Shown piece after piece: positions 21,590 to 30,309 of a stretch of DNA of 64,000 nucleotides. The translations under genes were made by a program, and so were the position numbers. The number at the start of each line of letters is the position of its first letter. Position 1 is the stretch's first letter. The notes beneath the pieces are model-generated. The model had not been told where the DNA came from and searched no databases. It saw nothing but the letters and a program-made list of their open reading frames with translations. Source of the DNA: Kineosporia sp. NBRC 101731 (GTDB lineage Bacteria; Actinomycetota; Actinomycetes; Actinomycetales; Kineosporiaceae); contig NZ_BSTC01000005.1 of NCBI RefSeq assembly GCF_030269305.1, positions 310,001 to 374,000 of the forward strand, given 5' to 3'.

Positions 21590-21635
21590 GACCAATCGCG
21601 TCCCGATTGACATCCCCGTCATCCGGAGGCAACGT

Positions 21636-21680
21636 GTGAGCGTGCGTAAGACTCTCGTACTTGGACGGCGCGCCCGCTGA
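21636..21680 (+). CDS. ilvB leader peptide
   Basis: A 14-residue open frame, MSVRKTLVLGRRAR, starts at GTG 21636 with GGAGG six bases upstream. It contains Leu-Val-Leu and ends 24 nt before a strong terminator hairpin that precedes ilvB. The arrangement is that of a transcription attenuator sensing charged leucyl- and valyl-tRNA. It is too short for ordinary gene finding; support is from its ribosome site, composition and position. Confidence 0.75.
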   Translation: MSVRKTLVLGRRAR

Positions 21681-21704
21681 GGTCATGAAGACCCGCGAGC
21701 GCGC

Positions 21705-21738
21705 GACCCCTTGTGCCCATTGGGCCGAGGGGTCTTTT
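21705..21738 (+). terminator. Attenuator terminator of ilvBNC
   Basis: GACCCCTTGTGCCCA pairs with TGGGCCGAGGGGTC (small internal mismatch) and is followed by TTTT. It lies between the leader peptide and ilvB, about 90 nt before the ilvB ATG. GC-rich alternating segments (GGCGCGCCCGC, GCGAGCGCGCG) upstream could form the competing structure. Confidence 0.85.
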
Positions 21739-21827
21739 CGTCCCTGCCGACAGTTGTACGCAGTTCACCTGCCGGCATCGAGCAGTCCGATGCATGACAG
21801 TGATCCGACGAGCGAAGGAACCCCCTG

Positions 21828-27251: not shown

Positions 27252-28421
27252 ATGAACGCCAAGATTCTCGGCACCACCGAAACGCTCGACACCACAGACG
27301 TCGTCGACCCGGCCGGAACATCGGCACAGACGCCGGCGCAGCCGCTGACCTTCACCACCACGCTGAACCCCACGCCCGCCACCCCTGAGCGCCGCGCACA
27401 GATCCACGCCCAGCCGGGTTTCGGCAAGTTCTTCACCGACCACATGGTGTCGATCGACTGGACGCACGGTCAGGGCTGGCACGACGCCGGCCTGATCCCG
27501 TACGGCCCGATCCAGATGGACCCGGCCGCGGCGGTTCTGCACTACGCGCAGGAGATCTTCGAGGGGCTCAAGGCCTACCGTCACGCCGACGGCTCGGTCT
27601 GGTCGTTCCGTCCGGAGGCCAACGCGGCCCGGCTGGCCCGCTCGGCCCGCCGTCTGGCCCTGCCCGAACTGAGCACCGAAGACTTCCTGGCCTCGGTCGA
27701 CCTGCTGGTCAAGACCGACCAGGCCTGGGTGCCCGACCACGAGAGCGGCGAGAGCAGCCTGTACCTGCGGCCGTTCATGTACGCGTCGGAGAGTTTCCTG
27801 GGTGTGCGGCCGAGCAAGACGGTGCGGTACCTGCTGATTGCCTCGCCGGTCGGCCCGTACTTCTCCGGCGGGGTCAAGCCGGTGAGCATCTGGCTCTCGA
27901 GCACGTACACGCGGGCCGCGGCCGGGGGCACGGGCGCGGCCAAGTGCGGCGGCAACTACGCGGCCGGTCTGGCGGCCCAGCTCGAGGCCGAGGCGCACGG
28001 CTGTGAGCAGGTCTGCTTCCTCGACGCGGCCGAGCACAAGTGGGTCGAGGAACTCGGCGGCATGAACATCTACTTCGTGACGAAAGACGGCACGCTGGTC
28101 ACGCCGACCGTCTCCGGCACGATCCTCGAGGGCATCACCCGCTCGTCCATCCTCACCCTGGCCGGCGAGCTCGGCCTGAAGGTCGAGGAGCGCCCGATCA
28201 GCATCGACGAGTGGCGGGCGGGCGTGGCCTCGGGCGAGATCACCGAGGTCTTCGCCTGCGGCACGGCCGCTGTCATCACCCCGCTGGGCGCTCTGGCCTG
28301 GGAGGGCGGCGAACTCGAGATCCCGACCGGTGAGGTCGCGATGAAGATCCGCCAGTCCCTGCTCGACGTCCAGTACGGCCGGGCCGAAGACACCCACGGC
28401 TGGATGCGCCGACTGGCCTGA
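27252..28421 (+). CDS. ilvE: Branched-chain amino acid aminotransferase
   Basis: The 389-residue protein is a fold-type IV, class II branched-chain aminotransferase that makes Val, Ile and Leu from their 2-keto acids with glutamate. The PLP lysine is in [15 protein letters not shown], and [18 protein letters not shown] is the C-terminal phosphate/substrate loop. The start is ATG 27252 with GAGGGAG 7 nt upstream. The first 30 residues are a Thr/Pro-rich extension before the family begins. A family-B hairpin follows the stop. Confidence 0.97.
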
Positions 28422-28430
28422 CTTTTCGGG

Positions 28431-28477
28431 AATTGAGGACGAGGCGGGCACCCCGGGTGCCCACCTCGTCCTCAATT
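28431..28477 (+). terminator. Family B hairpin at the ilvE 3' end
   Basis: AATTGAGGACGAGGCGGGCA (28431 on) continues to a 23-nt arm that pairs with 28455-28477 with one mismatch and a 1-nt loop. It begins 9 nt after the ilvE stop. The GAGGACG core is shared with hairpins at 30257 and 33210 and with partial copies near 43535 and 63800. Confidence 0.9.
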
Positions 28478-28529
28478 CGGAGAGGTTCCCGGACCGTTCA
28501 CCGCCAGGTGTGGCAGAATCGGCGTCACC

Positions 28530-28577
28530 ATGTACAGCACCAGCGTGATTATTCGCAGGCGCGTCGACACCGCCTAA
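28530..28577 (+). CDS. cimA leader peptide
   Basis: A 15-residue frame, MYSTSVIIRRRVDTA, starts at ATG 28530. Val-Ile-Ile is followed by codons that form the left arm of a GCGCGTCGAC/GTCGACGCGC pause hairpin. A terminator with six Ts follows, then cimA. This is a textbook-like attenuator tuned to isoleucyl- and valyl-tRNA, the end products relevant to citramalate synthase. No strong ribosome site is seen before the ATG. Confidence 0.75.
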   Translation: MYSTSVIIRRRVDTA

Positions 28578-28604
28578 GGCTCCCCAGGGCACCGTCGACG
28601 CGCA

Positions 28605-28634
28605 GACCTCTCGCATCCGCGAGGGGTCTTTTTT
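28605..28634 (+). terminator. Attenuator terminator of cimA
   Basis: GACCTCTCGC and GCGAGGGGTC form a 10-bp stem (one G-U) with a 4-nt loop, followed immediately by TTTTTT. It lies 32 nt before the cimA ATG. Confidence 0.9.
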
Positions 28635-28666: not shown

Positions 28667-30256
28667 ATGGACACCACGTTCCAGGTGTACGACACCACCC
28701 TGCGCGACGGCGCCCAGCAGGAGGGGCTCAGCCTCTCGGTGCAGGACAAGCTGGCGATCGCCGGGCATCTGGACGAACTGGGTGTCGGGTTCATCGAAGG
28801 CGGCTGGCCGGGGGCGATTCCGAAGGACACCGAGTTCTTCCGCCGGGCCGCGACCGAGCTGAACCTCAAGCAGGCGGTCCTGGCGGCCTTCGGCGCCACC
28901 CGCAAGGCGGGCGTGGCCGTGCACGAGGACCCGCAGGTGAAGGCGCTGCTCGACTCACTCGCCCCGGCCGTGACGCTGGTGGCCAAGAGCGACATCCGGC
29001 ACGTGGAGCGGGCTCTGCGCACCACCGCGCAGGAGAACCTGGCGATGGTCACCGAGACCGTGCACCATCTGCGCGAGCACGGGCGCCGGGTGTTCCTCGA
29101 CGCCGAGCACTTCTTCGACGGTTACGCCTTCGACCGGGGGTACGCGCTGGAGGTCGTACGGGCCGCGGCCGAGGCCGGCGCCGAGGCGATCGTGCTGTGC
29201 GACACCAACGGTGGCATGCTGCCGCACCAGATTGCCGACATCGTGCACGACGTGCGCACGGAATCGGGTGCGGCACTGGGTATCCACTGCCACAACGACA
29301 CCGGGTGCGCGGTGGCGAACTCACTGGCCGCCGTCGAGGCCGGGGTGATCCAGGTGCAGGGCACGCTGAACGGGTACGGCGAGCGCACCGGGAACGCCGA
29401 CCTCGTCACTGTTCTCGCCGACCTGGAGCTGAAACTAGGCCGCCGGGTGCTGCCCGAGGGCCGGATCCAGGACATCACGCGGATCGCGCACGCGGTCAAC
29501 GAGATCGCCAACGTGTCGCCCTACAACCGCCAGCCGTATGTGGGGGCCTCGGCGTTCGCGCACAAGGCGGGTCTGCACGCCAGCGCGATCAAGGTCGACC
29601 CCGACCTGTACCAGCACATCGACCCCTCGGCCGTGGGCAACGACATGCGCATGCTGGTCTCGGACATGGCCGGGCGCGCGTCGATCGAGCTGAAGGGCAA
29701 GGAGCTGGGTTTCGACCTGTCCAGCGACCGGGAGCTGCTGGGCGAGGTCACCGACCGGGTGAAGCACCTGGAGGCCCGGGGATACACGTTCGAGGCCGCC
29801 GATGCATCGTTCTCCCTGCTGCTCACCGAGGCGGTGCACGGCGCCCGCCCGGTGTTCTGCGAGGTCGAGAGCTGGCGCGTGATCACCGAATTCCGCGGTG
29901 CCACCGGTGAGGCCGTGTGTGAGGCGACGGTGAAACTGACCGCGGGCGGGAACCGGGTGGTCGCCACGGCGGAGGGCAACGGCCCCGTCAGCGCCCTCGA
30001 CCGGGTGCTGCGCCAGGCGCTGCTGCCGGTCTATCCGGAGCTGGACCGGATGAAGCTGACCGACTTCAAGGTCCGCATCCTCGACGGGGAATCGGCCACG
30101 GATGCCGTCACCCGGGTGCTCGTGGAGACGACCGGCGCCGGGTCGGTCTGGCAGACCGTGGGGGTCGGGCCGAACATGATCGAGGCCAGCTGGCAGGCCC
30201 TGCTGGAGAGTTTCGTGTACGGGCTGTCGTCGATGGGTGTGGCTTCCCGGGTGTAG
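28667..30256 (+). CDS. cimA: Citramalate synthase (CimA family)
   Basis: The 529-residue protein has a DRE-TIM catalytic barrel starting VYDTTLRDGAQQEGLSLS, with GIHCHNDTGCAVANSLAAVEAG and NGYGERTGNADL, and a C-terminal LeuA-type allosteric domain. The length fits citramalate synthases rather than 2-isopropylmalate synthases of the LeuA type (about 570-640 in actinobacteria). It condenses pyruvate with acetyl-CoA to give citramalate, bypassing threonine for isoleucine. The ATG at 28667 has AGAGG 9 nt upstream. Expression is probably attenuated by isoleucine/valine tRNA charging. Homocitrate-like substrates are possible but less likely. Confidence 0.9.
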   Translation: MDTTFQVYDTTLRDGAQQEGLSLSVQDKLAIAGHLDELGVGFIEGGWPGAIPKDTEFFRRAATELNLKQAVLAAFGATRKAGVAVHEDPQVKALLDSLAPAVTLVAKSDIRHVERALRTTAQENLAMVTETVHHLREHGRRVFLDAEHFFDGYAFDRGYALEVVRAAAEAGAEAIVLCDTNGGMLPHQIADIVHDVRTESGAALGIHCHNDTGCAVANSLAAVEAGVIQVQGTLNGYGERTGNADLVTVLADLELKLGRRVLPEGRIQDITRIAHAVNEIANVSPYNRQPYVGASAFAHKAGLHASAIKVDPDLYQHIDPSAVGNDMRMLVSDMAGRASIELKGKELGFDLSSDRELLGEVTDRVKHLEARGYTFEAADASFSLLLTEAVHGARPVFCEVESWRVITEFRGATGEAVCEATVKLTAGGNRVVATAEGNGPVSALDRVLRQALLPVYPELDRMKLTDFKVRILDGESATDAVTRVLVETTGAGSVWQTVGVGPNMIEASWQALLESFVYGLSSMGVASRV

Positions 30257-30309
30257 AGCACGAGGGAGGACGTGGTTGCCAGGTGGGCAACCACGTCGTC
30301 CCTCGTGCT
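30257..30309. terminator. Family B hairpin between convergent cimA and the secreted propeller gene
   Basis: A 24-nt arm beginning AGCACGAGGGAGGACG (30257-30280) pairs with 30286-30309, with one mismatch and a 5-nt loop. It touches the cimA stop and ends 9 nt before the stop of the minus-strand gene, so it can terminate both. Confidence 0.9.

Follow-up and report, generated by a model that had tools for sequence, protein, structure and literature searches.

The citramalate synthase gene (cimA) of Kineosporia sp. NBRC 101731 is preceded by a short leader frame, a hairpin and an intrinsic terminator, which very probably act together as a ribosome-controlled transcription attenuator, letting cimA respond to charged Ile-tRNA through the position of the ribosome. 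The element lies in a 64,000-nt stretch with a G+C content of 70% (hereafter the window), in which ilvB, ilvN, ilvC, leuB, ilvE and cimA form a row on the + strand; it lies between the end of ilvE, at 28421, and the start of cimA. A preliminary description of this DNA had proposed an attenuator made up, in order, of a 15-codon frame, a hairpin (there read as a putative pause hairpin) overlapping the last leader codons and a terminator with six Ts. We confirm that all of these parts are present in the sequence, with the 5' arm of the hairpin inside the frame (Table 1), and the comparisons below support the attenuator interpretation.

Table 1. Features of the cimA leader and of the related ilvB leader, in window coordinates.
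Feature	Position	Strand	Details	Basis
-10-like element	28511..28519	+	CAGAAT with upstream TG (extended, TG-G-CAGAAT)	Sequence; promoter putative
cimA leader ORF	28530..28577	+	MYSTSVIIRRRVDTA; 15 codons, ATG 28530 to TAA 28575-28577	
Regulatory codons	28548..28553	+	ATT ATT (Ile-Ile)	
Hairpin 1	28559..28603	+	10 bp; GCGCGTCGAC 28559-28568 / GTCGACGCGC 28594-28603	
Intrinsic terminator	28604..28634	+	11-pair stem 28604-28629, loop of 4, six Ts 28629-28634	
cimA	28667..30256	+	Citramalate synthase, regulated gene	TIGR00977 equivalog
ilvB leader ORF	21642..21680	+	MRKTLVLGRRAR; GTG start, regulatory codons CTC GTA CTT	
ilvB-leader hairpin 1 and terminator	21668..21738	+	Hairpin 1 21668-21704, flush with terminator GACCCC...GGGGTC 21705-21734, TTTT 21735-21738	

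The layout of the element is that expected of an attenuator: a run of end-product codons lies in a short frame, and an intrinsic terminator stands between that frame and cimA. Hairpin 1 overlaps the last codons of the leader with its 5' arm and ends flush with the terminator. Ten bases separate the -10-like element from the leader ATG, and no Shine-Dalgarno sequence is visible for the leader ORF; thus, the leader is probably translated from a leaderless or nearly leaderless transcript. ATT is a rare codon in this setting, making up 6 of the 119 Ile codons in the window's six ilv/leu/cimA genes; among the Ile codons near the hairpin in the leaders, there are 133 ATT and 122 ATC (ATT 133/255). 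A pattern scan detected two terminator-like sites in the region where 0.7 were expected. Alone, this count is weak evidence; the real evidence is conservation.

Known RNA families do not account for the element. At Rfam gathering scores, the whole window yielded two tRNAs and neither a riboswitch nor a T-box, and searches of the cimA and ilvB leaders at E<=1 gave no T-box covariance match. The cimA leader has three sub-threshold sRNA matches in Rfam, and the ilvB leader has none. On these results, a riboswitch, a T-box or another known RNA family was rejected. Near-perfect 24-nt inverted repeats without T runs lie on both sides of the cimA unit (28430-28478 and 30257-30309), and similar repeats, with GGCACC/GGTGCC cores, occur upstream of cimA in four relatives (L085, L086, L087, and L089). 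The first of these repeats is separate from the element and follows ilvE, and the reading of the element as the ilvE terminator was dropped.

The downstream gene encodes a citramalate synthase. Its product scores 622.9 bits against the NCBIfam model TIGR00977 (cut-off 450), falls under the cut-offs of the LeuA equivalogs listed, and is the sole match in the genome above the TIGR00977 cut-off. The leader had been cited in support of CimA rather than LeuA activity; CimA activity is indeed favored, by the family score, and the leader agrees with that assignment rather than establishing it. The genome also harbors a threonine dehydratase above the TIGR01127 cut-off. Both isoleucine routes thus seem to be present.

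The element is widespread among cimA-bearing actinobacteria. A search for the same leader in relatives, as the preliminary description had suggested, recovered it in all 13 family genomes, each of which has cimA with the element before it (13/13). Among the 80 matches listed for further cimA relatives, it was found in 31 of 47 (L005-L051) and in none of 33 (L052-L084), the latter including many Acidimicrobiia-type and non-actinobacterial records. The search key for this count was the nucleotide core AT[TC]AT[TC]N5GCGC, so diverged elements may have been missed; one element with a single Ile codon (L009) was added by eye. From 44 elements we built an alignment (A1), in which both hairpins are predicted, and then a covariance model (R1). 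Under strict filters, R1 matches 218 of 394 class genomes, and CimA is found at E <= 1e-100 in 310 of the 394. The gene is present in 211 of the 218 model-positive genomes, a count of co-occurrence within a genome.

The distribution differs sharply between families. Among cimA genomes, the element occurs in 40/40 (f25), 39/39 (f27), 21/21 (f28), and 28/34 (f35), and in 3/34 (f26) and 0/39 (f34); the last two, as whole groups of cimA genomes with few or no R1 matches, count against the account of the element given below. In total, 99 genomes have cimA and no R1 match, and 14 of these were examined by eye. One (L254) carries a variant of the element that R1 missed, while three others (L255, L258, and L260) show no element before cimA. 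In four genomes of f35 (L252, L253, L256, and L257), the start of cimA seems to lie near or directly after a -10-like box, the arrangement that would result if the attenuator were lost and the cimA message became leaderless. Six genomes of f26 (L259 and L261-L265) have a different conserved stretch before cimA, roughly GTGAACCCG...TCGCGCGT...CCGGC...GCGCGTGAC, which contains neither a T run nor an Ile run.

Base pairs covary strongly in both hairpins. The covariation set comprised 83 elements (86 fetched, minus three that repeat training loci) in an alignment fitted to the model, and 96.6% of cells in it pair. Two-sided changes were found in 123 cells, compared with 28.3 in shuffles, and none of 500 shuffles scored as high. 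When the partner was slid by one to three columns, at most 14 two-sided cells remained. The base of hairpin 1 is nearly invariant (GCGCG in 123/127), a constancy that is partly selected because GCGC was in the first search key. The upper stem covaries, and the terminator stem does too.

The isoleucine codons are conserved within the reading frame of the leader. To call starts, we located a -10-like hexamer and took the next ATG or GTG downstream, with the Ile codons left out of the procedure; an automatic call was possible for 115 of 127 distinct elements, and 12 were left out. In 111 of the 115, the final five codons ahead of hairpin 1 include at least one Ile codon in frame, versus 0 and 5 in the other two frames. 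R1 selects for Ile-like letters and not for frame. In the four exceptions (L007, L044, L047, and L094), the automatic call begins the frame a few bases too soon; 1-15 nt downstream of it lies an ATG or GTG in frame with the Ile codons. The preliminary description had matched the Ile codons to the end product of the CimA route and had named orthologs whose leaders lack the frame or the Ile codons as the finding that would tell against it; the match holds in these 111 leaders, and the survey of orthologs left it standing. The ends of the frame are likewise conserved. Start codons follow the hexamer by 6-10 nt in 108/115 leaders (the caller's window was 4-12 nt), which suggests leaderless or nearly leaderless transcripts, and, counted from the point where hairpin 1 begins, a stop codon lies between -4 and +25 in 114/115, compared with 13/230 in the other frames.

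Related leaders precede other branched-chain genes, with codons that change with the target. R1 matches the ilvB leader of the window (L286) at 21654-21739 (E 4.8e-4), and both the spacing and the flush hairpins of this leader are as in the cimA leader; its presumed start codon was picked by a 6-nt spacing from a -10-like CAACGT at 21630-21635. R1 also gave weaker second sites, as well as sites in seven genomes lacking cimA. We examined 29 sites (19 non-cimA second sites, nine of cimA-less genomes, and the window ilvB leader), which were selected for likeness to the model and not for their codons. According to tblastn, the targets are ilvB (17), leuS (8), leuA (2), and a small protein (2), and for the five of these enzymes compared with curated families (two ilvB, two leuS, and one leuA) the assignments were the same. 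In the folds of all 29, judged by eye, hairpin 1 directly abuts a terminator. The codons before hairpin 1 form Ile runs at cimA and Leu runs at leuS and leuA (Val-Leu-Leu in L281), and are Leu-Val-Leu/Ile or Val-rich at ilvB, in each case matching the target gene. The idea that the element is specific to cimA was consequently dropped, the same chassis being found before ilvB, leuS, leuA, and the small protein.

Several of these sites deserve separate mention. The leuS leaders, which carry Leu runs and whose hairpins are flush, come from four families (L165, L268, L269, L271, L274, L275, L279, and L281; f17, f19, f35, and f44). In f19, two leuA genes (L160 and L164) have the chassis together with a terminator, and their leaders end in LLLT and LLLIESARH, whereas the LEU element reported elsewhere is terminator-less. 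An Ile-run leader also stands, away from cimA, before a gene for a protein of 103-107 amino acids in L284 (G195:C37) and L285 (G114:C6), the same sites as in L138 and L132. This protein has sub-threshold ACT-domain matches only, and is possibly an unrecognised branched-chain regulatory protein.

At somewhat less than even chances, actinobacteria may share one attenuator chassis, with a leaderless frame, regulatory codons approximately 5 nt before a hairpin based on GCGCG, a stop codon at that hairpin, and a flush terminator. It would be used before ilvB, leuA, leuS, cimA and the ACT-like gene with its codons swapped; an overlapping antiterminator would be lacking, and the position of the ribosome would be read via the adjoining hairpin.

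The geometry of the cimA leaders suggests how such a reading might work. For folding we used 125 elements, each from the 5' arm to the T run (five of 130 had no T4 run where it was sought); the gap between hairpin 1 and the terminator is 0 nt in 93, 1 nt in 29, and 2 nt in 3 of them. The front edge of a ribosome was placed using a toeprint distance of +16 from the P site at +1. A ribosome holding the first Ile codon in its A site is calculated to reach -2 to +1 of hairpin 1 with its front edge in 111/115 leaders. If the A site instead holds the last Ile codon, the edge would lie at +4 in 86/115, over GCGCG, and the geometry is blurred to that extent. A ribosome at the stop codon is calculated to cover the 5' arm of hairpin 1.

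In the account that we favor, RNA polymerase would start at the ATG or a few bases before it, and ribosomes would load on the 5' end. When isoleucine is ample, the ribosome would pass the Ile pair, reach the stop codon, and open the 5' arm of hairpin 1, and the terminator would then end the transcript before cimA. When isoleucine is short, the ribosome would wait at one of the Ile codons, and its front edge would then sit where hairpin 1 begins. The hairpin, flush against the terminator, would then reduce termination, and cimA would be transcribed. We give this account as a whole, including the role of hairpin 1, a probability of roughly 0.6. Its least certain step is the weakening of the terminator by a formed hairpin 1, which adjoins it without overlap; the way in which this would come about is a guess. 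The geometry does fit an anti-terminator proposal for M. tuberculosis ilvB1, in which, according to the available text, a waiting ribosome leaves the hairpin intact and a finishing one opens it (PMC13236596).

Hairpin 1 could also act in the opposite sense. In this mirror image of the favored account, hairpin 1 stacks on the terminator and aids it; a ribosome held at the Ile codons would cover GCGCG, the stack would be lost and termination would drop, and hairpin 1 would re-form after release. The flush junction favors such stacking, and the near-invariance of GCGCG, the five stack-proximal pairs, while the upper stem covaries points the same way, as does the +4 edge calculated for a ribosome whose A site holds the last Ile codon. 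However, with the stop codon placed where it is, a terminating ribosome would open hairpin 1 as well and so raise expression in replete cells. Moreover, a ribosome stalled at the first Ile codon would scarcely touch the hairpin, and the terminator, with 11 pairs and six Ts, looks strong by itself. We regard stacking as an unlikely reading.

In textbook attenuation, an antiterminator shares bases with the terminator. Among the 125 elements, duplex energies compared with shuffles gave no sign of an overlapping antiterminator under nested base pairing. The loop and 3' arm of hairpin 1 show lower complementarity to the terminator 5' arm than shuffled sequences do (mean z +0.57 and +0.63), and near shuffles in complementarity to the terminator 3' arm (mean z -0.19 and -0.17). 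On average across these elements, then, no trp-type antiterminator, overlapping the terminator and mutually exclusive with it, was detected for nested pairing. Since excess complementarity is absent and the hairpins adjoin without overlap, the textbook antiterminator appears to be missing, a point that also counts against the favored account. By eye on alignment A1 we also considered whether hairpin 1 continues into the base of the terminator, where in the window AGG could pair with CCT around an AGA bulge; this was dropped, many relatives having TAG or GAG instead. A classical four-segment attenuator would demand an antiterminator that escaped these comparisons by relying on a pseudoknot, on non-canonical pairs, or on a partner protein. 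Structures that overlap or exclude one another have been proposed, as far as the available texts go, for Corynebacterium ilvBNC (PMC11857589 and PMC10272879) and likewise for M. tuberculosis ilvB1 (PMC13236596), and z against the terminator 3' arm does fall below -1 in 22-23% of elements and below -2 in 6%; given the averages for both arms, a hidden antiterminator is improbable. Least credible of all is a plain terminator or small RNA with a short frame that is due to chance or irrelevant to decoding, for although a promoter and a strong terminator alone would yield a short RNA, and weak sub-threshold sRNA matches exist in Rfam, the frame, Ile codons, start spacing, and stop position are conserved together and the codons turn to Leu/Val with the target gene.

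Attenuators with leader peptides are already known from actinobacteria, and in this sense the cimA case is ordinary in principle. The M. tuberculosis ilvB1 attenuator was reported with SEnd-seq and reporters, and replacing its LVVI codons with Ala abolished the response, leaving the reporter low and unresponsive (PMC13236596, available text). For S. coelicolor ilvB, leader codon changes are described as having no effect on regulation in the available part of PMC1262725, which covers ilvB, leuS, leuA, trp, cys, and ileS; this finding speaks against the account favored above. The ilvB attenuators described for Streptomyces and Mycobacterium (e.g., S. lividans IlvL, MRTRILVLGKRVG) resemble the element studied here in combining a frame of branched-chain codons, a hairpin, and a terminator with a T run, and the S. 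lividans ilvB leader is reported to be leaderless (PMC8079986, available text). They differ from it in that the target here is cimA and the codons are Ile. Streptomyces leuS attenuators (LeuL2, MRAVRLLLSEPR) have a leaderless frame, a Leu run, a hairpin, and a T run (PMC8079986), and the leuS loci found here have the same chassis. They differ in their Leu codons, in having a tRNA synthetase as target, and in the antiterminator hairpin described for them in the available text of PMC1262725.

Two further systems are close in outline and distinct in build. The Corynebacterium ilvB-II motif, or ilvBNC attenuator, likewise has a leaderless uORF rich in branched-chain codons, a hairpin P1, and a terminator P2; however, its reported antiterminator overlaps the terminator base (PMC11857589 and PMC10272879, available texts), and none such was detected here. 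The LEU element upstream of leuA also has an upstream frame with end-product codons. It is reported to form a pseudoknot, with Leu codons and the Shine-Dalgarno box joined in its base stem (available text of PMC1262725), and in S. lividans it is without a typical terminator (available text of PMC8079986), whereas the element before cimA consists of two simple hairpins and a T run.

The cimA attenuator is apparently undescribed, despite being widespread, well supported, and of unusual build. Neither cimA nor citramalate occurs in the main texts of PMC1262725 and PMC13236596. The eight S. lividans leaders in the available text of PMC8079986 do not include that of cimA, and the gene is not named there or in the available texts of PMC11857589 and PMC10272879, which deal with ilvB. 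Literature searches that ran largely outside subscription journals found no cimA attenuator in print.

Citramalate synthase carries out the committed reaction of the citramalate pathway to isoleucine, and the element is a candidate for its regulator. The leader also adds to the case for genes of this kind encoding genuine citramalate synthases. More than 100 aligned natural variants are now at hand of an attenuator that seemingly works without a textbook antiterminator, which bears on older doubts over the Streptomyces ilvB and leuA leaders (PMC1262725, available text). The swap of codons between targets amounts to a natural experiment in how switches of this type come to serve another gene.
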